Positions 6,821-19,610 of a stretch of 40,232 nucleotides of DNA are shown piece after piece. This stretch comes from an uncultured Bacteroidales bacterium (GTDB lineage: Bacteria > Bacteroidota > Bacteroidia > Bacteroidales > UBA932): assembly GCA_946549475.1 (NCBI GenBank), contig CAMNQO010000002.1, positions 1 through 40,232 on the forward strand, given 5' to 3'. The notes beneath the pieces are model-generated. The model ran no database searches. It saw only the letters and a list, made by a program, of their open reading frames with translations, and had not been told where the DNA came from. The first letter of the stretch is position 1. Each line of letters opens with the position of its first letter. The translations under genes and the position numbers were made by a program.

Positions 6821-9061
6821 ATGAAGCAATATCTTATCCCGGGCCTGGCTTTGCTGCTGGCGCTGACCGCCTGCAGCAAAGAGGCTGACTATGAGGATGA
6901 CGGTGTCATCTACGGCAAGCGCAAGATGAATTACTGGCTGCGCTCTCCCAAGGGGACCAAATGGCAGCAGAGCGATGTCGTCGGCGTTTTCAGTGTGGAT
7001 GACGCCAACAGCAAATTCACCATTTCCAACCTTCCCGAGGGAAAAGAGCAGTTGGGCTGGTTTTCCGGTCCGCTGACCGCCGCCACCGAGGTGCGCGGAG
7101 CCTACTATCCCTACAGCGCCGCAGCCGGTCAGGACCCTGCCCGGATTGCCGTTTCCGTCTCTGCGAATGCCGTCAACGGGACCTCGCCGGCCCGCTTCGA
7201 CATGGCTGCCTTCCAGAAGGGAAAAGATGTCCCCCTGGTCTTCCAGAAGAAACTCTCCACGCTCAAAATCAGTTTCTCCAATGTGGATGATGCCTGGAGC
7301 AAGGACGAGCCGCTCTCATCCATCGTCGTCACGGGCCAGCGGGAGATGACGGGACGCTTTACCGCCGACCTGACCCGCGCGGATGCCGCGCTTGAGCCGG
7401 TGCAGGCTGCCAGGGGACTCACCATCGACATGCGAAACGCCAAACTGACTTCGGATCTGACGGCCCGGGCGGCGATGGCGGCTACCTGGAAAAAGGGCGA
7501 TGTCATCGAAGTCGCCGTCAAGCGCTCCCGCGTGGAGGGTGATGAAATCGATGATTTCAAAAAGGTCAGCCTGACGCTTGAGGCGGATGCCGTCGAGGGC
7601 GAAGAACTGGCCCTGACGGTCAACGCGCCGGACCTCGATCCCGTTTTGCCTTCGCTGAGCCTGGAATGGGCGAGTCCCGTGCTGGGCTTGGAAGACGGGG
7701 CTGCAACCTCTGAAATCAGGGGCAACTATCCCGCCGTGGACCAGAGCGGCAATGTCTATGTCCAACTGGCCCGGGGGACGGACAAACTGTACAAACTCAA
7801 TGCGGCCGACGGGTCCATCGCCTGGAGCCGCCCGCTGGGCTATACCCTCGACAACAATGCCTCTCCTTCCTGCGAGCCGGACGGCAGCGTCATCTATGCG
7901 GCGGGAGGCAGCAGCGGCAGCGGCCGCGTCGTGGCCGTAGGCGGCAGCAACGGCAGTGTCAAATGGACCTTCACTTCGGACAAGTTCTTCGGGAACGGCA
8001 ATACGCCGGCTCCGAATTTCAACCAGACGGCTCCGGCCATCGGCGACAACAACCTCTATGTCGGCAATGCCGGTACGACGGGCAGCGTCCTCGCCATCAA
8101 CAAGAATACCGGCAACCGGGTGGCCTATGTCAGTGATGCGGCGGACGGCACCGGCGGTCCAGTCGGCGGCGTGACATCCGGTCTGGCGATGACCTCCGGC
8201 GGTCAGGTGGCCTGGCTGTGCAATTATGGGATGTTTACGGCGGAGCGTTCCAAGTTGGACAATCCGTCCAAGACACACACGACCTACGGCGCCTATACGA
8301 CCTGGGCGGAGCGTTTCTCGCACGGCTGGACTTACAATTCTTCCCGCAGCGGCGTGGCGTGCAGCAAGATTGACGGTCAGGATGCCGTCTGGGCGGCCGT
8401 GATGGAACGGACCACAGGCGGGCAGTTCAACATGCATGTGATCGTCTCCAAGGTGACGGCCGGCCGGGAATTGTCCTATACCGCCAAAGCCTTCACGAAG
8501 GACTATGTGAGACGGGATGTTACCAATCAGGACCAGGGCGGTATCGTCATCGGCCCCCAGGGCGAGGCCATCGTGAGTCTCAAAGGGACGCCGGGCGGCA
8601 TTTTTGCCGTCAGTCCGGCCGGTCAGGAGGTGTATGCCTATACCCTGCCCGGCGAGGCCAAGGATGTCTGCGGCTCCTGCGCGGTGGACAACGCCGGCCG
8701 CATCCATGTGGTGGCGGACTATGCTTCGTCCAGCGATGCCAACTATTATATCCTCCGTCCCGATTATGCCACCGGTCAGTGCAAACTCATCGTTTCCGCC
8801 AATCTGACCCGGCTGATGAAGGATGCCGGAGTCAATATGGGCACGGACACCAATGTCCGTTGCTGGTCTTCCGTGGTCATCGGCGCGGACGGCCGTGTCT
8901 ATCTGGCCGTCACGCAGTTCAAGGAGAGCGACACCGGTGCCTGGTCTGACCATAAAGCCCGTGTCCTTTGCCTGAAATATACCGGTGTCACCGGCCCCAG
9001 CAGCGTCTCGCCCTGGCCGCAGAAAGGGGCCGACGCGAGTCATACGGGCCGTCAGAAATAA
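6821..9061 (+). CDS. Lipoprotein with N-terminal fimbrillin-like (Mfa-like) domain fused to a PQQ-type beta-propeller
   Basis: MKQYLIPGLALLLALTAC lipobox; WQQSDVVGVFSVDD...YYPYSAAAG...KLSTLKISFSN is fimbrillin-like; then propeller blades (NYPAVDQSGNVYVQLARGTDKLYKLNAADGSIAWSRPLG; NQDQGGIVIGPQGEAIVSL) and SPWPQKGADASHTG terminus. Confidence 0.82.
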   Translation: MKQYLIPGLALLLALTACSKEADYEDDGVIYGKRKMNYWLRSPKGTKWQQSDVVGVFSVDDANSKFTISNLPEGKEQLGWFSGPLTAATEVRGAYYPYSAAAGQDPARIAVSVSANAVNGTSPARFDMAAFQKGKDVPLVFQKKLSTLKISFSNVDDAWSKDEPLSSIVVTGQREMTGRFTADLTRADAALEPVQAARGLTIDMRNAKLTSDLTARAAMAATWKKGDVIEVAVKRSRVEGDEIDDFKKVSLTLEADAVEGEELALTVNAPDLDPVLPSLSLEWASPVLGLEDGAATSEIRGNYPAVDQSGNVYVQLARGTDKLYKLNAADGSIAWSRPLGYTLDNNASPSCEPDGSVIYAAGGSSGSGRVVAVGGSNGSVKWTFTSDKFFGNGNTPAPNFNQTAPAIGDNNLYVGNAGTTGSVLAINKNTGNRVAYVSDAADGTGGPVGGVTSGLAMTSGGQVAWLCNYGMFTAERSKLDNPSKTHTTYGAYTTWAERFSHGWTYNSSRSGVACSKIDGQDAVWAAVMERTTGGQFNMHVIVSKVTAGRELSYTAKAFTKDYVRRDVTNQDQGGIVIGPQGEAIVSLKGTPGGIFAVSPAGQEVYAYTLPGEAKDVCGSCAVDNAGRIHVVADYASSSDANYYILRPDYATGQCKLIVSANLTRLMKDAGVNMGTDTNVRCWSSVVIGADGRVYLAVTQFKESDTGAWSDHKARVLCLKYTGVTGPSSVSPWPQKGADASHTGRQK

Positions 9062-9089: not shown

Positions 9090-9245
9090 ATGAAGTTGAG
9101 AGAAACAGGAATATCCCATAGGGGGGGGTATCTTAGCCCCGAGATAGAAGTCTTGCTATGTTCAGAGAGCGCTCCGCTGCTGGACTCGCCGGGCGGCGGT
9201 TTCAGCGGAGACGAAGGCGGTCTTGAAGAAGAATATCTGGACTGA
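9090..9245 (+). CDS. 51-aa small protein of unknown function (MKLRETGISHRGGYLSPEIEVLLCSESAPLLDSPGGGFSGDEGGLEEEYLD)
   Basis: ATG at 9090, stop TGA 9243-9245, 28 nt after the previous CDS and 14 nt before the next. Resembles short YxSPxxEVL... peptides often encoded beside Bacteroidales surface-protein genes. Confidence 0.6.
   Translation: MKLRETGISHRGGYLSPEIEVLLCSESAPLLDSPGGGFSGDEGGLEEEYLD
9121..9128 (+). repeat. G8 homopolymer inside the 51-aa ORF
   Basis: CATA-GGGGGGGG-TATCTT read directly; encodes R-G-G. Confidence 0.95.
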
Positions 9246-9259
9246 GAGAGGACCGTCGT

Positions 9260-12200
9260 ATGAAAAAGGATCTTTTTGCATGCAGTTTGCGCGTGCTTGT
9301 GGCCCTGGCTGTCAGTTGCCAGTTTTTTTCCTGCGCGACGAAAGACGCGCTGTCCGATGATGTGATTGCGTCCGGCCCTTCGTCCGTTTCCGGTACTTCC
9401 GGGCAGGATGGCGCATCCTCCGGCGACCCCTTGTCCGAAGACCCGTCCGCTGACGGCCCTTCCGGGGGCTCCTCCGATCAGCCGGCCCTGCCGGACGACC
9501 CCTATCCCCACATTCCGCTGGAAAGCCTGGATATGGTGACGGTTTCCTGTCAGGGCGAAAGCAACGGCGAGGCTTCGCAGCCCCAGTCCAAAGCGACTTC
9601 CACGGGAGAGCAGCCGGACGAACTCGACCCGTCTTTCGTCCCCGTGCAATGGGATGCCGAATCCACCAAGACCTATCTGGATGCCTCCAACAACATCTTC
9701 TGGAGCGAAGGCGACCGGCTGAAAATCTATTATGCCGACGGAGCCTCCAACTATACCGTCTCGACCATCAAGCACGGCGATGTCCAGAAATCGACCTTCG
9801 ATGCCCTTGTGGACAAGTCGGCAGACTATTACTATGCTTTCTATCCGGAGGGACTCACGGCGACGATGACCGATATCGCGGCCAAGGGCGCTTTTGAAAT
9901 CGTCATCCCCTCCGAGCAGGACGGACGCTTTGAGAACTGCCACCTGGCCGTCGGCAAGGCCTCGGCGGAGGGACGGCATTTCGCCTTCAAGAATGTCGGC
10001 AGTTATATGAAAATCACCGTGGCCAGCACGAGTGCGACGGCCATCACCCTGCAGGCGACCAACTCCGAAGACAAGATTGTCGGTACGCTCGTCGCGCCTT
10101 TTACCGATGATGCCGGGACATTGGGCGAACTGACCCTGAAGGAGGGGACGGGCGCTTCCAGCGTGACGGTCAACCTGCCCGAAGGCCGTACCGGGGCGAC
10201 GACGGTGTATATCGCCCTGCTGCCGGGCGTCAATTTCAGCAAGGGTTTCCGCCTGCGTTACGAATACGCCGACGGGCAGACCCGTCCGGGCTACGCCTAT
10301 TCCAAGTCCGACGGCCGCAGCATCGCCCGGCGCGGCATCCTCAATGTCAAGACGCTGGACGACCGTATCAAGACCGACTGGTTTGTCAAGACAAGCGGTA
10401 CTTACAGCGATGCGGACGCATCCGGCGCCGGCTCCAGTTGGGACAAGGCTCTCAATGTGACAGGGCTGGCCGACCTGCTGGCCCAGCCGCTCGACGGCAG
10501 CGGCAATCAGGACGACTATGCCGCTTTCGACCGGGCCTGGATGCTCGACGGAGCCCATATCCACATCGCGGCGGGGGAATACACCCTCGACAAGGTCAAA
10601 ATGGAGTGTACCAATTATGACCATCCCTTTTCCGTCCATATCCTCGGCGGCTATCCGACTTCCTTGAGCGATACCGCCACCTCCGCAGTTCGTGATACCA
10701 CGGCCAACCGGACGACTTTCGTCGGAGCGGGTGACCGCATCCTCCTGTTGGGCAATCAGGTCTCCCTGACGATGGATAAAGTCTGGATGACCGGCGGTCG
10801 CAGCCGCGGGAACAGTGAGAGCGGTGTCGCCCTGCAAGTCCATCCGGGAACGACAGGACAGGCGAGGGCGGTGCTGACCGCCTGCGGTTTCAAGGACAAT
10901 GTCACCTCCGGCACCGATTCCAACGGCGGCGCCGTTTCTGTCCATGGGAACAAGGCCTATGCCCGTCTGGACGGCTGCCATTTCTATGGCAATGCCACCG
11001 GGCCCGGGCAGGCCGCCGGAGCCATCTATGTCTGGAGCGACGATGCCGGAGCGGAAGTCCATGTCAACGGCTGTACTTTCATCGCCAATGCCGCCGGTAC
11101 CTGGGGCGGTGCCATCGGTTGTTCCAAGGGGAAGGTTTTCATCAATCAGGAAGTCAACACGACGGCCACCGTGTTCCGAAACAACTGTACGAAAAACAGC
11201 GATTCGCACGGCGGTGCCGTCTATTGCGCCACGGGGGCGCTGTGTGCCCGCAACTGCCGTTTTGTCGGCAACTGGTGTCCTTCGGGGGCCAACCTTGGTG
11301 CAGGAGGCGGATTGAGCCTGGCCGATGACTGCACCACCTCCCTGTCCGACCTGCATTTTTCGGCGGATGAAAGCGGCCGCTATATGGCCCGCAACGGGGG
11401 GTTCCTCAGAATCAATACCGACATCCTTCATCCCGTCACCTTCTCTAACTGCACCTTTGAAAACGGGAAGCCCAGCAATGTGGGCGGTGTCGTCGTGCTC
11501 ACGACCGGTGCCGAGAGCGACCTTCGTTTTGAAAAATGTCGTTTTACGGACAATATCTCCAATTATGCCGGCGGCGTCTGCCATCTGAATACGACGACGC
11601 ACAAAGCCAGTTTTACTTCCTGTACCTTTACCGGCAATCAGGTTACAGGCAGCGGGGGAGGCGGCGTGCTGTCCATGGAAGCCGGTACGGCGACCCTGAC
11701 TTCCTGTACCTTCACCGGCAACCGGCAGACGGCGGCATCTGCCCGTGGCGGCGGCGTATTCTGGCTCCACTCCAGCAAAAATCCCCGCCTGACCGTCCGG
11801 GGCTGCACTTTCGAGGACAATACGGCTTCGGTGACAACGGCCGGAGATGCGGCCGGCAACCAGACTTGCGGCGGCGGCATCCTCTATGCCGACAATGGTA
11901 CGGTGACTTTCACTTCTTCCGACGAGATGGCTTCGGGCACCCGCAACAGCGTCAGCGGAAGTGCCTCCGCGACGGCCGGCGGAGCGATACTGGCCGTCAA
12001 GGGCAGCAATGCGATGAGTCTTTCCTTCGCCTATACGGATTTCTCTTCCAACGCTTCCGCCAACTATGGCGGAGGTGTCTATACGGACACGGATGTGACG
12101 CTGACCGACTGCATCCTCGACGGCAACACGGCATCGACCGGAGCGGCGGCCCTGTATGCCGGAGGCAATATTACGGTGGCCGGCAGCGATACGCTCAAAT

Positions 12201-14716
12201 GCGCCATCCGGAACCACAGCAATACGGGCAACTCGCCCATTATGTATGCGGCGGCCGGCAGCATCAGCCTGACCGGCTGTAAAATCCAGGGAAACAGCGT
12301 AGTCAGCCCGTCTTCCCGAGGCGGTCTCTTCCCCCTGACGAACAATGCCTTCACGGCGACGGATTGTGTGTTCCGCAGCAATTCGGTCTCGGGTGGGGGC
12401 AGCCGTTACGGTGTTGTCGCCGGCTTGCTTGCCGGAGGCAGCGGCACCCTGACCTTGAACAATACGGACATTTATTTCTGTAACGGTACGCAAAACGCGG
12501 GAGCCATTTATGTCGAAGGTGGCGTCAAAGCGGCTTCCGGTACGGCCGTGACGGTCACGGGCGGCCGTTTCAAAGGCAATGTGACGGACGGTTATGGCGG
12601 TGTTTTCCATTTCGAAGAAACGGCCGCCAATGCGGTCAGGGCCGTCTTCTCCGGAGCCGTATTCGAAGCCAACGAGGCTTCGACCCGGGGCGGAGCATTC
12701 CATCTGAACAATGAGGCCATTGGCAGGAATGTGTCCATCACCGATTGTACATTTACCCGCAATGTCCAGACTTCGACGGACAGCGGGCGGGGCGGCGGGG
12801 CCATTAATCTTGAAGCCGGTGCCCTGACCCTCAGCGGCTGTAATTTTACCGCCAATGAGTCCAAGTCCGTTCCTGCCGCCGATAATAACTGGTCTGGCGG
12901 CGGTGTCATCATGACTTCCGGGTTGGCAACGCTTACGCTGACCATTCAGGCTTCCGAAGCCAATGGGCGTCCGGTCTTATCGGGCAATAAGAGTGCCGGG
13001 TACGGAGGGGCGATATCCCACACCAACGGGTCTGATAAGTCCGTTTGTTCCATCCGCGACACCAAGTTTACTTCCAATACCAGCGTCTTTTCCGGCGGCG
13101 CCTTGTATTATAAGACCTCGAACGCTTTGTCCTTGACCGATGTCGGATTCGTACGGAACAGCGTGACGGGCTCCGGTGCCTCGTTCGATGCGGCTCACGC
13201 GGGCGATGCCATCGCCTATATCAACGGCAAAAGCCTGACGATGACGGGCAGCAAGATGTCTCTCAATTATATTGAAGGACATACCGCGACGGTTCCCATT
13301 CATTCGCCTGCCGTGACGACTTATACCTTCGATAAGATAGAATTTAAAAGCAACACGACCACCCTGCGCAACGGCAGTATGCTCAATCTGAACACCAAAG
13401 CCACCTTTGCCATCAGCAATTCCAGCATCCACGACAACAGCGCTCCCCACGGCGGCGCCATCTTCGCCGATTTGCCGCGTTATACGGACATTACGACAGG
13501 GACCGGCAACTGCACGATTTCCAATACGAGCCTTGAAAACAACACGGCAACAGCCGCCGACGGCAAAGGCGGTGCCATCTATTGGAACTGCGTTTCCTGG
13601 ACCAACAATGTCGAATCAGGTACTCCGATGCTCAAAATCAACAAAAGTTCCAGGCTCAACGGCAACAAGGCGACTATGGCCGGATCCGCCATCTGGCTGG
13701 GGGTAGGACGCGTGTATTTGGACGCTTGTACGGTTTCCGGCAATACCTTTGCTTCTCTTACATCCAGCGAAGCCAATGACCATGGTGGTACGCTCTATAT
13801 GGAAAGTCTCTATTCCAAACTGGACATTACCAACTGTACCCTTTCCGGCAACAGCGTTGACGGCAAGGGCGGGGTGCTGAATGTACAGGCCGGGCGGGTC
13901 TTTATGACCAATTGTACTTGCAACGGCAACAGTGCCTATTCCCGGGGCGGCGCCATCTTCCACAGCAGTGGTGGTTTCATCCTTGTCCGTCGCAGTACTT
14001 TTGTCGGCAACTATGTGACAAAAAACAACGCCTGGGGCAGTTTCCTGCATGTCAATAACGGTGGGTCCTACTCGATGTTCCTCAACTGCACCATCGATGA
14101 CGGCCCGACTGCCCGCACGACGGCGACCGTCAACGGTTCGGTCAATCTCATGCTGGTCAACAGCACCGTCATCGGCAACACCAGCGGTCCGGTCCTGCGG
14201 GTGGAAAACAACAAGAACGGCCTCCTGCTCAACAACATCATCCTCAACAGGGGGAGCGGGAAGGCAGTTTTCCACTACGGCGGCTACAACTGGTCCTCTT
14301 ATGGCGGCTACAATATCCTCGGATCGGTCGAACGGAACGGACAGACCGTCACCAATATTCCCGGCGAGTGTACGGGCGACAAGACCGGCAAGACGGAGGC
14401 GAGCCTGGGTTCCTGGTTATGGAACGACGCCGGCTATTATACCTGGGACGGAAAGGTGGGTGGAGTCGCGACAGCGACGCCTGCCATCAACCCGTCCGGC
14501 AAAGACGATTATGTATCCAGCGGTATGAAAAGCGGCTTCAACTATAGTTTGACCATTAATGATGAGAAAGATTTGAACGCTATTGTCAACAATCTCGGCA
14601 ATCAGGTCGTGACGGGATGGGCTTCCGGGGAATACTATTTCGACCGGCGGGGCAACTCCAGTGCGGGCGACCGCAGAGTGGCCGGCCACAACTATCCCGG
14701 CTCCTATGCACTTTGA
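9260..14716 (+). CDS. Giant (1818 aa) lipoprotein: fimbrillin-like N-terminal domain plus Pmp-like right-handed parallel beta-helix repeats
   Basis: LVALAVSCQFFSC lipobox; FWSEGDRLKIYYADGASNY...YYAFYPEG fimbrillin-like; SSWDKALN..LDGAHIHIAAGEYTL beta-helix entry; repeated C.FxxN ... GGA(I/V/F) units (CTFTGN, CRFTDN, GGAIYW, GGAISH). Confidence 0.88.
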   Translation: MKKDLFACSLRVLVALAVSCQFFSCATKDALSDDVIASGPSSVSGTSGQDGASSGDPLSEDPSADGPSGGSSDQPALPDDPYPHIPLESLDMVTVSCQGESNGEASQPQSKATSTGEQPDELDPSFVPVQWDAESTKTYLDASNNIFWSEGDRLKIYYADGASNYTVSTIKHGDVQKSTFDALVDKSADYYYAFYPEGLTATMTDIAAKGAFEIVIPSEQDGRFENCHLAVGKASAEGRHFAFKNVGSYMKITVASTSATAITLQATNSEDKIVGTLVAPFTDDAGTLGELTLKEGTGASSVTVNLPEGRTGATTVYIALLPGVNFSKGFRLRYEYADGQTRPGYAYSKSDGRSIARRGILNVKTLDDRIKTDWFVKTSGTYSDADASGAGSSWDKALNVTGLADLLAQPLDGSGNQDDYAAFDRAWMLDGAHIHIAAGEYTLDKVKMECTNYDHPFSVHILGGYPTSLSDTATSAVRDTTANRTTFVGAGDRILLLGNQVSLTMDKVWMTGGRSRGNSESGVALQVHPGTTGQARAVLTACGFKDNVTSGTDSNGGAVSVHGNKAYARLDGCHFYGNATGPGQAAGAIYVWSDDAGAEVHVNGCTFIANAAGTWGGAIGCSKGKVFINQEVNTTATVFRNNCTKNSDSHGGAVYCATGALCARNCRFVGNWCPSGANLGAGGGLSLADDCTTSLSDLHFSADESGRYMARNGGFLRINTDILHPVTFSNCTFENGKPSNVGGVVVLTTGAESDLRFEKCRFTDNISNYAGGVCHLNTTTHKASFTSCTFTGNQVTGSGGGGVLSMEAGTATLTSCTFTGNRQTAASARGGGVFWLHSSKNPRLTVRGCTFEDNTASVTTAGDAAGNQTCGGGILYADNGTVTFTSSDEMASGTRNSVSGSASATAGGAILAVKGSNAMSLSFAYTDFSSNASANYGGGVYTDTDVTLTDCILDGNTASTGAAALYAGGNITVAGSDTLKCAIRNHSNTGNSPIMYAAAGSISLTGCKIQGNSVVSPSSRGGLFPLTNNAFTATDCVFRSNSVSGGGSRYGVVAGLLAGGSGTLTLNNTDIYFCNGTQNAGAIYVEGGVKAASGTAVTVTGGRFKGNVTDGYGGVFHFEETAANAVRAVFSGAVFEANEASTRGGAFHLNNEAIGRNVSITDCTFTRNVQTSTDSGRGGGAINLEAGALTLSGCNFTANESKSVPAADNNWSGGGVIMTSGLATLTLTIQASEANGRPVLSGNKSAGYGGAISHTNGSDKSVCSIRDTKFTSNTSVFSGGALYYKTSNALSLTDVGFVRNSVTGSGASFDAAHAGDAIAYINGKSLTMTGSKMSLNYIEGHTATVPIHSPAVTTYTFDKIEFKSNTTTLRNGSMLNLNTKATFAISNSSIHDNSAPHGGAIFADLPRYTDITTGTGNCTISNTSLENNTATAADGKGGAIYWNCVSWTNNVESGTPMLKINKSSRLNGNKATMAGSAIWLGVGRVYLDACTVSGNTFASLTSSEANDHGGTLYMESLYSKLDITNCTLSGNSVDGKGGVLNVQAGRVFMTNCTCNGNSAYSRGGAIFHSSGGFILVRRSTFVGNYVTKNNAWGSFLHVNNGGSYSMFLNCTIDDGPTARTTATVNGSVNLMLVNSTVIGNTSGPVLRVENNKNGLLLNNIILNRGSGKAVFHYGGYNWSSYGGYNILGSVERNGQTVTNIPGECTGDKTGKTEASLGSWLWNDAGYYTWDGKVGGVATATPAINPSGKDDYVSSGMKSGFNYSLTINDEKDLNAIVNNLGNQVVTGWASGEYYFDRRGNSSAGDRRVAGHNYPGSYAL
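9301..9345 (+). repeat. 45-bp perfect direct repeat, copy 1 (signal-peptide/lipobox coding)
   Basis: ggccctggctgtcagttgccagtttttttcctgcgcgacgaaaga, identical to 14786-14830; includes a T7 run at 9323-9329. Confidence 0.95.
10870..14020 (+). repeat. Degenerate protein-level repeat region (C-x-FxxN / GGA motifs) in the first giant beta-helix gene
   Basis: About twenty FxxN tetrapeptides (FKDN, FYGN, FIAN, FRNN, FVGN, FTDN, FTGN, FEDN, FSSN...) alternating with GG[AGV][ILVF]. Boundaries approximate. Confidence 0.8.
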
Positions 14717-14729
14717 TAAAAATGTGACT

Positions 14730-17700
14730 ATGCACAACACTTATCATCAGAAAAAACGAGTGGAACCCTGTCTGCGCATGCTGGCGGCCCTGGCTGTCAG
14801 TTGCCAGTTTTTTTCCTGCGCGACGAAAGAAGCGCTCTCCGAGACGCAGCCGTCTTCAGAAGCCCCGGCCGCCGTCGGGGGTGATTCGGAAACACAGCAA
14901 CCCGGCCCGCTTGAGCCGGGCGGCGACTATATCTCTCCCGACCATTTCCATCTGGTGCGGGTGGAACTGGAGGCCTGCTCCGATGCGGATGCGGTTCCTG
15001 ACGCTTCGCCGGCCTATTTGCCCGGAAGCAAGGTCTCCCTCGCGGCCCGGGAGGAGGCGTTGGACGAGACGGTCGCACTTTCCGGCGCGGACCCTCTTAC
15101 GGGCGGTGCGGATGACACCAAAACGGCCCTGGACGGAAGCAACAACATCCTCTGGAATGCCGGGGATCGCATCAAGATTTACTATACTTCCGGCGCTTCC
15201 AACTGGACGCAGGGTACGGTCAAGCATGGCGGCAGTGCCGATTCGACCATCGACGGCTGGGTCAATGAAGAGGATGCGTATTATTATGCGTTCTATCCGG
15301 TCGGAATCACGACCTCCGTCACCTATGACGGCGATGCGACCTATCCGCACGGGGCTTTTACCGTGACTGTCCCGACCGAGCAGGACGGCGCTTTTGCCAA
15401 CTGTCATATCGCCGTCGGCAAGGCGTCGAAATCGGGCCGGCAGTTTGCCTTTTCCAATGTGGGCAGTTATCTGAAAATGGAGGTGGCGGACCTTGAAGCG
15501 ACTTCCATCACCGTCCGCTCCCTGGTCACGACCGACCGTATTGCCGGCACCTTCACCGCCGCCTTTGCCGATGCGGCCGGGACCCTCGGCGACATCAGCG
15601 TCGATGAATCCTCGTGCAGCGGTGAAATCACCGTCACCCTGCCGTCCGGACGGACGCAGACGACGACGGTGTATGTGGCCGTGCTGCCCGGTGCGACCTT
15701 CAGCAAGGGTTTTCTGCTCCGCTACAACTACTCCGACGGCATCACCCGTCCCTCCTATGTGTATGAAAACACCTCCGGGCGGACGGTGGCACGCCGCAAA
15801 ATCCTCAACTGCGGCTCGCTCGACAGCCGCATCGTGACCGACTGGTTTTTCAGGAGCGACGGCACGAAGACCGACCCCAAGACCAAGGGAAACGGCGCGA
15901 CCTGGGAAAACGCCCTCAATGCGACGGGACTGGCCAACTTGCTGGAGCCCGAGACCGACCCCGACCTGCTGCTCGCCCAGGCGGCCCGGCTTGACGGCGC
16001 CTCCCTGCATTTTGCCAAAGGGACTTTCGTGACACCCTCGCAGATTACCTTCGAAGCCGCCGCTTACGCCGAGCCGGTCAATCTGAGGCTGCTGGGCGGC
16101 TATCCGACCACCCTGACGGGCACTTCCACTTCCGGCCGGGGGACCGGCGATCATGAGACCGTCCTCTCGGGCGCCGGCACGCACCGTATTTTCAAACTCG
16201 GCAGCCAGACGGCCTGGAGCCTCGACAACTTCAAGATGACCGGTGCCTATGTCACCGAAGGTGATGGCGGCTGTTTCATGCTGGACGGCACATCCCCGGC
16301 AGACTGTTCGCTGTCGCTCACCGAAGTCTGGTTCTATGAAAACGAGACGGTCAATCAGCAGAGCACCCGTTTGGGGAGCGGGGCCGCCGTCTGTCTCGGC
16401 AAAGGGACACTTACGGCTGCCGGCTGCACCTTCGAGAAAGGGTCGGGGCGCAACGGCGGCGGAATCATGGTTTATGACCAGACGGGAGCCAACAACGCCG
16501 TCGCCTACATCCGCGATTGCCTGTTTACGGACAATGCGGCCGTTTCCAACTGCGGCGGCGGTTTTTCCGCCAACGGCGGACGGGTTTCGCTGGACCGCTG
16601 CACCTTTACCGGCAACCGTTCCACCGTATTCGGCGGTGCCGTCCACTGGGATGCGGACAGGTCCGTCAATTCTTCCCTGACCATCCGGGACTGCATCTTC
16701 ACCTCCAATGTTTCGGACAATGGAAATGGAACGGACGGTCAGGGCGGCGCTCTCTCTGTCCAGACCGGGACCGTGACCCTGACGGGATCGACTTTCACCG
16801 GCAACCGGGCCGGAGACGACGGAGCGCTGGTCGGCGGGGCTGTCTGGGTCCAGGGGACGCTGGATGCATCGGACGTGACATTCACCGGCAACCATGCCTG
16901 CGGCGACGGCGGGGCCATCTGTGTCAGTGCGGCTGGCTCCCTGACACTGAGCGGAACCAACCGTTTCGAGGGGAACTATTGCACCTCTTCCGTCAATGCG
17001 CAAGGCAATACCGTCCATGCCTGGGGCGGTGCCATCTGCACCCGAGGGACGACGCAGATTACCGGCGCGACGACCTTTTACAACAATTATACATTCAAGC
17101 AGGCCGGTGCCATCTCCTTTGCCTCCGGTACGCTTACCATACAGAACGACGGGACCGCCCGCCCGCTTTTCGACCGCAACCATACGGCCATTTCCTGGTC
17201 CTCGGGAGACGGTATCGCGGGAGTCAACGGCGGAGCCGTCGGCATCTATGCCACCAGCGGGACCGCCATCCTGACCGGTTGCGATTTCGATGCCAATTAC
17301 CATCCTTCCGACTTTATCAACATTACCAGCGAGGGCGGGGCGATGGCCGTCGTACAGAACTCCGCCACCGACCTCAACCTGACGGTGACGGACTGTAACT
17401 TTACCAACACTTATTCCGGCACTTCGACGCTCAACAACTATGCCAGCGCGACGGCCCGCAACGGCGGAGCATTGGTGCTGGAGGTCGCCGCCACCAATGC
17501 CGGCAGCATTTCTTTCTCCTCCTGCCGCTTTACGGACAACCGGGCGAACAATGTGGGCGGCGTGACGACGCACAAGCGGGGAACCGTCTCTTTTTCGGAC
17601 TGCACTTTTACCGGCAACAAGGCTCCCGGCTATTCCGCCGTCCACCACATCAACAATGCGGCGGCCTCGGCCTCGTTCAGCAATTGTCCGATGACAGGCA

Positions 17701-19610
17701 ACCAATTGACCGGTACGGTGGGCTGGCAGGGAGAGGGCATCGTCTCCCGCATCGAGAACGGCAGCGTGACGATGACTTCCTGTACGCTGAGCGGCAACAG
17801 TGCTGCCGGAGGCTCTTACGGAGTCATCCGCCTGACGGGTGACAAAGCCGCCCTGACCCTGCGGGGCTGTACCGTCGAGGGCAATTCTTCCGCCAGTGCG
17901 ACGGCCGACGGCGGAGCCTTGTATTTCGGAGCGGGCAGCCTCACCGTCACATCCTCGGACGGCACGCCTTCCGGTACGAAGAGTCTCATCCGTGCCAATA
18001 CCGGCGGCAGCGGCCGGGGGTACGGCCTGTATGTCGCGTCCGAACTGACACCGTCCTTGTCCTATTGCACCTTCGATGCACAGAACGCTGCCGGTGTGGT
18101 GTCTCCGACGAGCGGGTCCGCCATCTATTATGCGGGCGAGACCGGCAGCGAATCGCTTTCCATGACCGGCTGCGAGGTCAAAAATTTCAACCGCGCCACC
18201 AACAGCAGCCTGTGGTGGACCAACCTGCTGGATGCGGACAGCCATACGGCGGCTTCCACCCTGTCTTTCTCCGGCTGTACATTCAGCGGGCATACGGTCT
18301 CGGGCAACGGCGGCGTGTTCAACTATCCCTATGGAACACCCTTCACCCTCTCGTCCCTTGACGGCTGTACCTTTACCGGCAACAGCGCCACGGGCAACGG
18401 CGGGGCCATCTACACCGAACAGGATATCGACGCGACGGGCTGTACCTTCTCTTCCAACACGGCCTCCGGCAACGGCGGTGCCCTCTATATGGATATGGAT
18501 GTAAGCGACTATGGCAGCGGGCACGAAGGGTTTGCGAAGCATTCCGTCACATCGGACGATGCCACCTTCTCGGGCAACGGCGCCGTGTGCGGCGGAGCCG
18601 TCTATGTCGCGTCCGGCCGCTATTTCGCGAATGGGGCGACTTATACCTCCAATACGGCTTCGCACGCGGAAGATTCCGGCGGTGCCGTGCTTGTCTCGGG
18701 CAGTGCCTCGCAGGCGACCTTTGACGCTTGTACTTTCACGGGCAACCGGGCGGACTCCGGCAAAGGCGGAGCCTTGCGGCAGAATGAGGGTGTCGTCAAG
18801 ATCAACGCCTGCACCTTCAGCGGAAATTATGCCGCAGCCCGTGGCTCGTGCTTCTATGGTACAGGCTGGGGCTTTGCCTATATGAACAACAGCAAGTTTG
18901 TCGGCAACTCCCTGGGAAGCGGATTCGGCAGTGCCATCTTCTTCTCGGGTTTCGGCTGGATTTTCGGCCACAGCCTGCTGGTGGCGGACAATACGGCGAC
19001 CGTCAACGACTCTCCCGTTTCCGGCTCGGGCCGCCTGCTGCTGGTCAACTGCACCTTCCTGAGCAAACTGCGAAATGCCGCCAGCGGCATCCTGCGTTTT
19101 GAAAACAGTTATGGCAAGATCTATCATTCCATCCTGCTGCCGACCGATGACGCTTCGTGCCGTTATTCGCTGAATCTGGTAAACAAGAGAACCGGCGATT
19201 ATCTGCAGACCTATTATTCCGTGCTGGATGATGTGAGCGACACGCCCTCGATGTATTCGGGCGGCAGCAACGATGTGAGCGGAAAGCGCCCTTCCGACCT
19301 GGACGGCTGGTCGTGGAACGCCACGGACAAGATGTATGCCTGGAACGGCAGCGTGAGCGGCTATACCAATTATGCGTCGCTGGATGCCCTGTGGTCGGCT
19401 GTCGCCGCTTCTTTCGCACATTATGAAGCGATTCCGTCGCCGACCGGCAGCCCCGATTATTATTTCTTCCAGTCGGCGGCGGCTCAAGACGGCGGGATGG
19501 CGAAGACCTTTCTCGACTGGCTGGACAACGATTGCGGCGGGCGCAATAAGGACATTCTGGGACAGATGCGCCAGGATGGCAAGAACTATCCCGGCTGCCG
19601 CGCATTTTGA
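14730..19610 (+). CDS. Giant (about 1626 aa) paralogous lipoprotein: fimbrillin-like domain plus Pmp-like beta-helix repeats
   Basis: MLAALAVSCQFFSCATKEALSE lipobox; ILWNAGDRIKIYYTSGASNW...YYYAFYPVG; ATWENALNATGLANLL..LDGASLHFAKGTF; many CTFTGN, GGAI, GGAV repeats. ATG 14730 preferred over the ORF-track 14661 start. Confidence 0.88.
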   Translation: MHNTYHQKKRVEPCLRMLAALAVSCQFFSCATKEALSETQPSSEAPAAVGGDSETQQPGPLEPGGDYISPDHFHLVRVELEACSDADAVPDASPAYLPGSKVSLAAREEALDETVALSGADPLTGGADDTKTALDGSNNILWNAGDRIKIYYTSGASNWTQGTVKHGGSADSTIDGWVNEEDAYYYAFYPVGITTSVTYDGDATYPHGAFTVTVPTEQDGAFANCHIAVGKASKSGRQFAFSNVGSYLKMEVADLEATSITVRSLVTTDRIAGTFTAAFADAAGTLGDISVDESSCSGEITVTLPSGRTQTTTVYVAVLPGATFSKGFLLRYNYSDGITRPSYVYENTSGRTVARRKILNCGSLDSRIVTDWFFRSDGTKTDPKTKGNGATWENALNATGLANLLEPETDPDLLLAQAARLDGASLHFAKGTFVTPSQITFEAAAYAEPVNLRLLGGYPTTLTGTSTSGRGTGDHETVLSGAGTHRIFKLGSQTAWSLDNFKMTGAYVTEGDGGCFMLDGTSPADCSLSLTEVWFYENETVNQQSTRLGSGAAVCLGKGTLTAAGCTFEKGSGRNGGGIMVYDQTGANNAVAYIRDCLFTDNAAVSNCGGGFSANGGRVSLDRCTFTGNRSTVFGGAVHWDADRSVNSSLTIRDCIFTSNVSDNGNGTDGQGGALSVQTGTVTLTGSTFTGNRAGDDGALVGGAVWVQGTLDASDVTFTGNHACGDGGAICVSAAGSLTLSGTNRFEGNYCTSSVNAQGNTVHAWGGAICTRGTTQITGATTFYNNYTFKQAGAISFASGTLTIQNDGTARPLFDRNHTAISWSSGDGIAGVNGGAVGIYATSGTAILTGCDFDANYHPSDFINITSEGGAMAVVQNSATDLNLTVTDCNFTNTYSGTSTLNNYASATARNGGALVLEVAATNAGSISFSSCRFTDNRANNVGGVTTHKRGTVSFSDCTFTGNKAPGYSAVHHINNAAASASFSNCPMTGNQLTGTVGWQGEGIVSRIENGSVTMTSCTLSGNSAAGGSYGVIRLTGDKAALTLRGCTVEGNSSASATADGGALYFGAGSLTVTSSDGTPSGTKSLIRANTGGSGRGYGLYVASELTPSLSYCTFDAQNAAGVVSPTSGSAIYYAGETGSESLSMTGCEVKNFNRATNSSLWWTNLLDADSHTAASTLSFSGCTFSGHTVSGNGGVFNYPYGTPFTLSSLDGCTFTGNSATGNGGAIYTEQDIDATGCTFSSNTASGNGGALYMDMDVSDYGSGHEGFAKHSVTSDDATFSGNGAVCGGAVYVASGRYFANGATYTSNTASHAEDSGGAVLVSGSASQATFDACTFTGNRADSGKGGALRQNEGVVKINACTFSGNYAAARGSCFYGTGWGFAYMNNSKFVGNSLGSGFGSAIFFSGFGWIFGHSLLVADNTATVNDSPVSGSGRLLLVNCTFLSKLRNAASGILRFENSYGKIYHSILLPTDDASCRYSLNLVNKRTGDYLQTYYSVLDDVSDTPSMYSGGSNDVSGKRPSDLDGWSWNATDKMYAWNGSVSGYTNYASLDALWSAVAASFAHYEAIPSPTGSPDYYFFQSAAAQDGGMAKTFLDWLDNDCGGRNKDILGQMRQDGKNYPGCRAF
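14786..14830 (+). repeat. 45-bp perfect direct repeat, copy 2
   Basis: Identical to 9301-9345 and in the same reading phase; T7 run at 14808-14814. Confidence 0.95.
16500..18910 (+). repeat. Degenerate protein-level repeat region (CTFTGN / GGA motifs) in the second giant beta-helix gene
   Basis: Recurrent CLFTDN, CTFTGN, CIFTSN, CRFTDN, CTFSSN with intervening GGA(I/V/L). Boundaries approximate. Confidence 0.8.

Follow-up and report, generated by a model that had tools for sequence, protein, structure and literature searches.

Whether a run of eight guanines inside a very small open reading frame (ORF) can act as an ON/OFF switch for the large surface-protein genes that follow it is the question raised by the locus described here. 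In Neisseria, Campylobacter, and Helicobacter, translational phase variation by poly-G and poly-C tracts is well documented, for example in hmbR and nalP (PMC3786947, PMC3723659, PMC8355987), and phase variation in Bacteroidales has been described as DNA inversion (PMC12632263). The word 'slipped' does not occur in the latter, a 2025 review on Bacteroidales, and open-access full text yielded no report of homopolymer phase variation for this order; subscription papers lay outside the search, and absence of a report is no proof.

The window, meaning the whole stretch of 40,232 nucleotides analysed, is contig C2 of an incomplete MAG (G000; 1.77 Mb, 242 contigs, 64% complete). We consider it very probable that its G8 tract is a simple-sequence (poly-G) contingency locus and one of a genome-wide set, with slippage and reversibility inferred in the absence of reads or a second strain.

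Results and discussion

The G8 tract and its reading frame

The features concerned, all on the forward strand, are as follows.
6821 to 9061, +: upstream lipoprotein with a PQQ_2 beta-propeller match
9090 to 9245, +: small ORF of 51 codons, of the 'Y..P' family, with no Pfam or NCBIfam family
9121 to 9128, +: G8 tract, proposed slipped-strand switch (frame modelling, and an orthologous G9 at G054:C45:8332-8340)
9246 to 9259, +: gap of 14 nt from the small-ORF stop to the next ATG, GAGAGGACCGTCGT
9260 to 14716, +: lipoprotein of 1818 aa with right-handed beta-helix repeats, proposed target of the switch
14706 to 19610, +: paralogous giant lipoprotein of 1634 aa with Chlam_PMP repeats, next in the operon

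The tract is the sole G or C run of at least 7 within the window. The original prediction placed it inside a 51-aa ORF between a PQQ-type gene and two giant adhesin-like genes, and this arrangement is correct: the translation of 9090-9245 is MKLRETGISHRGGYLSPEIEVLLCSESAPLLDSPGGGFSGDEGGLEEEYLD followed by a stop, codons 11–13 hold the tract, which with the preceding A encodes R-G-G as had been stated, and the flanking genes are the PQQ/beta-propeller lipoprotein gene ending at 9061 and the two giant lipoprotein genes listed above. The further claim that a slip of one base in either direction truncates the peptide agrees with frame modelling, in which seven Gs give a product of 18 aa, eight give 51 aa, nine give 15 aa, ten give 19 aa, and eleven restore the open frame.

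An orthologous locus with a different tract length

The nearest relative among the genomes searched is G054, an uncultured Bacteroidia MAG (RUG13253, the prefix of which denotes rumen genomes). In it the small ORF has a clear orthologue (E 2.6e-15), with G9 at the equivalent place; in the assembly this copy is OFF, both upstream ATGs, the only ones available, being out of frame and giving peptides of 12–17 aa; at a modelled tract length of 8 the same frame yields a 53-aa peptide. The frame past the G9 is still open, and over the 38 codons after the tract the two copies have a dN of 0.15 and a dS of 0.91 (dN/dS about 0.16), from which purifying selection on the frame beyond the tract is inferred. 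Such conservation beyond an OFF tract would be expected of a gene that is off only some of the time, and not of a dead one. The partner protein downstream is also kept in G054 (31% identity over the N-terminal 192 aa, E 1e-17), and the gene upstream of the small ORF appears to be different. A genus-wide search gave no clear orthologue of the small ORF except that in G054, and in a search of 85k named genomes the sole match was the same contig (CADAFY010000045.1). It had been stated at the outset that the switch would be refuted if orthologous loci did not conserve the tract; the only orthologue found retains it, as G9, which puts its ORF out of frame. This is a comparison between species only, in which tract length differs (G8 and G9) between related genomes and the codons past the tract are conserved; the assemblies of both are incomplete, and length variation within a population remains an inference.

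Since homopolymers are error-prone, the difference between G8 and G9 could instead be an error of assembly or the decay of a pseudogene. Such errors might be suspected from the position of the tracts in the assemblies, where 5 of the 20 runs of at least 8 in G000 lie within 200 nt of a contig end (5.5% expected; 7 of 35 when G000 and G054 are pooled, p 0.003), and real polymorphism is an equally possible cause; the excess may reflect populations that were polymorphic when sampled, or simply repeats. We find this explanation most unlikely, given that the giant ORFs of 1634–1818 codons are intact, which implies that indel errors are rare, that past OFF tracts the frames run on without a stop for as many as 499 codons, and that the purifying selection described above lies beyond an OFF tract.

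Long G/C runs across the genome

Run lengths were counted in a 388-kb sample of G000, and whole-genome counts come from pattern searches. In the sample, G/C runs of exactly 5 occur 408 times and those of exactly 6 occur 42 times; none of 7 is present, and the single run of 8 is the window tract. Over the whole incomplete genome, runs of exactly 7 number 4 and those of at least 8 number 20, as compared to about 20 and about 2, respectively, from geometric extrapolation to 1.77 Mb, and the distribution of run lengths is therefore bimodal rather than a mere tail. The longest internal tract in G000 and G054 is 9. Long runs are also unevenly placed: 15 of the 20 in G000 lie at most 150 nt from a called gene start, versus 83 of 450 runs of 5–7 (Fisher 1.5e-7), and pooling G000 with G054 gives 24 of 35 runs of at least 8 within that distance (Fisher 1e-9).

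These figures bear on the simplest alternative, that the G8 is an ordinary chance run in a GC-rich genome, in a small ORF that may be real or spurious, with no switching at all. Rarity by itself does not decide against it, as simple Markov models (order 1 to order 4) expect a few runs of at least 8 per 388 kb and make one G8 in that length unremarkable, and some long runs are plainly incidental, such as the one inside dnaA of G054. The weight of the evidence rests rather on the scarcity of runs of 7 relative to runs of 8, on the clustering of tracts at gene starts, on the related small ORFs, 9 of 12 of which have a tract (see below), and on the orthologous tract of another length with its effect on the frame; with these, chance is a very unlikely explanation. 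Eight Gs are, it should be said, short for fast slippage.

A family of small ORFs with tracts

A profile search recovered 11 relatives of the small ORF in G000, which with a truncated copy on contig C204 makes 12. The 'Y..P' small ORFs are 40–55 aa in length, have no model in Pfam or NCBIfam, and in an alignment of 14 members share invariant Y14 and P17 and an acidic C-terminal part. Nine of the 12 carry a run of at least 8. In five, accounting for 5 of the 20 such runs in the genome, it falls in the first codons (C2, which is the window, C6, C17, C128, and C204; three C runs and two G runs, all five in frame), and in four it is in or near the promoter, namely in the promoter spacer on C49, C146, and C222 and 68 nt upstream of the small ORF on C40. 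No tract is found in the three relatives on C9, C82, and C79. The proportion is biased upward, the profile having been built partly from tract-bearing copies, but there is no doubt about the enrichment despite this bias, because the chance of a tract per small-ORF unit is only about 0.0015. The candidate switch of the original prediction is thus supported both by the orthologous G9 with conserved codons beyond it and by the repetition of the design in eight further small ORFs of the same genome, without slippage itself having been observed.

Among the other long runs of G000, those on C73, C140, C206, and C35 are in or just before lipoprotein signal peptides, one on C66 lies in a promoter spacer (see below), and the remainder look incidental or are without readable context. 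We also note that the flanks of the tract are alike (ATA-G8-TA) on C2, C6, C40, C128, and C204 despite differences in coding sense and in the genes concerned. Contig C4 of G000 starts with G12 (positions 1-12), with a predicted gene start 91 nt further on, and the contig break falls at the tract. Contig C194 (L094) has a cyclase-like gene in an odd context around its G8, and contamination of the MAG is possible there. In 40 other congeners, TAG8 sites number only 0–3 per genome and are mostly of another type, which counts against the proposal.

Poly-G promoter cassettes

Four loci of G000 (C49:6768-6800, C66:4462-4494, C146:2263-2296, and C222:150-182) have a near-identical promoter cassette, TTTGGAAATGTGG(T/C)A-G8/9-NGTATNTTTG, in which G8 or G9 separates a -33 TTTG from a -7 TAnnTTTG. 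The TTTG/TAnnTTTG consensus is that of the Bacteroidetes sigma-ABfr promoter (PMC7366714). The cassette on C66 drives a lipoprotein gene that has no small ORF. In a genus-wide search of 400 genomes the cassette was found in G000 only and was absent from the 399 other congeners. The spacing x in TTTG-Nx-TAnnTTTG peaks at 19–20 in 436 kb of G000 (10 and 14 cases), and in the poly-G cassettes it is 21 with G8 and 22 with G9. Since a tract shorter by one or two Gs would restore the common spacing, the G8 and G9 copies may be low-expression states, expression here being inferred.

ON and OFF states at other surface genes

Tract-bearing genes of both genomes are found in either state. A second pair of orthologous small ORFs has a run of 8 C, ON, on C6 of G000 and a run of 9 C, OFF, on C28 of G054. 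A lipoprotein gene on C206 of G000 is OFF with G8 and 499 codons open past the tract, and its counterpart on C3 of G054 is ON with G8. In G054, a SusC/TonB-dependent receptor-like gene (so identified by sequence) has G9 just past the signal peptide and is OFF with 499 codons open beyond (C30:496-504, L110), another such gene has its tract in the signal peptide and is ON (C252:810-817, L121), and a gene for an outer-membrane-like protein on C11, also with the tract in the signal peptide, is ON. Such a mixture of ON and OFF states among intact genes agrees with the prediction from switching. In another congener a G8 lies in an apparent type I restriction specificity (HsdS) gene, identified by eye only (G016:C95:63081, L129); HsdS is a classic phase-variable target.

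Operon context and the proposed target of switching

The small ORF is in the middle of an operon, because no TAnnTTTG -7 element was found on the forward strand between positions 1 and 13743; a promoter immediately before the small ORF is ruled out on the same grounds. An invertible promoter was also considered and rejected, as the only inverted-repeat pair is imperfect (18 nt at 78%), has both arms in coding sequence, and has no -7 element between them. A stem followed by T7 at 9305-9329, in the signal-peptide codons of the adhesin, resembles an intrinsic terminator and was likewise set aside, being a weak fold (z -0.3) not seen in G054. No Rfam element was found at the locus and no phage relation of it.

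The 1818-aa lipoprotein has the N-terminal domain common to most of the lipoproteins that follow other small ORFs; the 1634-aa lipoprotein has no small ORF or tract of its own. The T[KR]T..W..GD signature of this domain resembles, in our judgement, that of fimbrillins, and it is the point of likeness between lipoproteins downstream of the small ORFs and the fimbrillin-like (Mfa_like) lipoproteins of Bacteroidales. Support from other methods is weak: Pfam Mfa_like_1 got no further than E 0.24, in one of 9 downstream lipoproteins, a PDB profile search gave no match, and the structure predicted for the adhesin N-terminal domain was unusable (pLDDT 35). As a separate matter, the signal-peptide regions of the two giant genes (9286-9358 and 14770-14842, including the short stem with T7) are 92% identical in DNA, which suggests a recent duplication or gene conversion, as read from sequence.

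A lipoprotein signal peptide lies closely downstream of every small ORF with readable 3' DNA, at a gap of 11–14 nt at loci other than the window; on C146 the nearest ATG instead overlaps the stop (TAATG), the lipoprotein frame there beginning a few codons past that ATG. Slippage is the accepted mechanism for contingency loci in other bacteria. At the window tract, replication slippage would add or remove one G, with G8 as the ON state (51-aa peptide) and neighbouring lengths as OFF states (peptides of 15–18 aa). The most likely action would be in cis: ribosomes that translate the whole small ORF would reach the adhesin start and re-initiate there, and with a truncated small ORF about 110 nt would be left untranslated and adhesin expression would drop through lost coupling and possibly Rho polarity. 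More weakly inferred is the step that makes the adhesin, and not the small peptide, the output of the switch; it rests on spacing alone without expression data, and gaps near 14 nt are common in operons.

It is possible, if somewhat doubtful, that the tract varies in length and that the small peptide is itself the switched product, for example as a regulator that acts on the lipoprotein or as its partner in the cytoplasm, with adhesin expression unaffected. This alternative remains possible in view of the purifying selection on the peptide and of the Y..P motif kept across distant loci, for which a leader serving coupling alone would have no need. It does not account as readily for the position of the small ORF, always in cis with a lipoprotein gene, for the C66 cassette, or for the tracts that hit lipoprotein genes directly.

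Comparison with known systems

A reading of the window tract as a contingency locus is consistent with what defines such loci, since the homopolymer is in an ORF, a change of one unit shuts the frame and other lengths restore it, and tracts are over-represented at particular genes. The locus shares with the systems of Neisseria, Campylobacter, and Helicobacter a G/C homopolymer early in an ORF at a surface-protein locus, a frame that shifts on a change of one base, and many loci per genome, but here the tract occupies a small ORF of its own that precedes the surface gene, the organism belongs to the Bacteroidales, and switching is inferred. The four G000 promoter cassettes are similar to the promoter-spacer phase variation of Neisseria porA and fetA (PMC5320596), except that they use a sigma-ABfr promoter with a usual spacing of 19–20; the window G8 is outside this class. 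Within the same order, the invertible promoters and SusC/SusD inversions of Bacteroides (PMC12632263) also produce stochastic ON/OFF expression of surface lipoproteins and SusC-like proteins, but those inversions are driven by recombinases, whereas the window tract has no strong inverted repeat on its flanks and the variable element is a homopolymer.

Conclusions

We put forward a broader hypothesis, which could equally well prove right or wrong: that this uncultured gut Bacteroidales lineage runs a genome-wide poly-G programme, in which a conserved family of tiny leader ORFs, each paired with a lipoprotein, forms the switching module, the tract being in the first codons of the leader or in the promoter spacer, and in which adhesins are toggled via translation of the leader or via transcription. 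Each tract is a length genotype that can be read from a single sequencing read, which makes the hypothesis testable on public metagenome reads. If it is true, it would suggest a possible role for this unannotated small-ORF family, and a slippage set extending over leader ORFs, lipoproteins, SusC-like receptors, and promoters would constitute a second, recombinase-free route of surface diversification in dominant gut bacteria.
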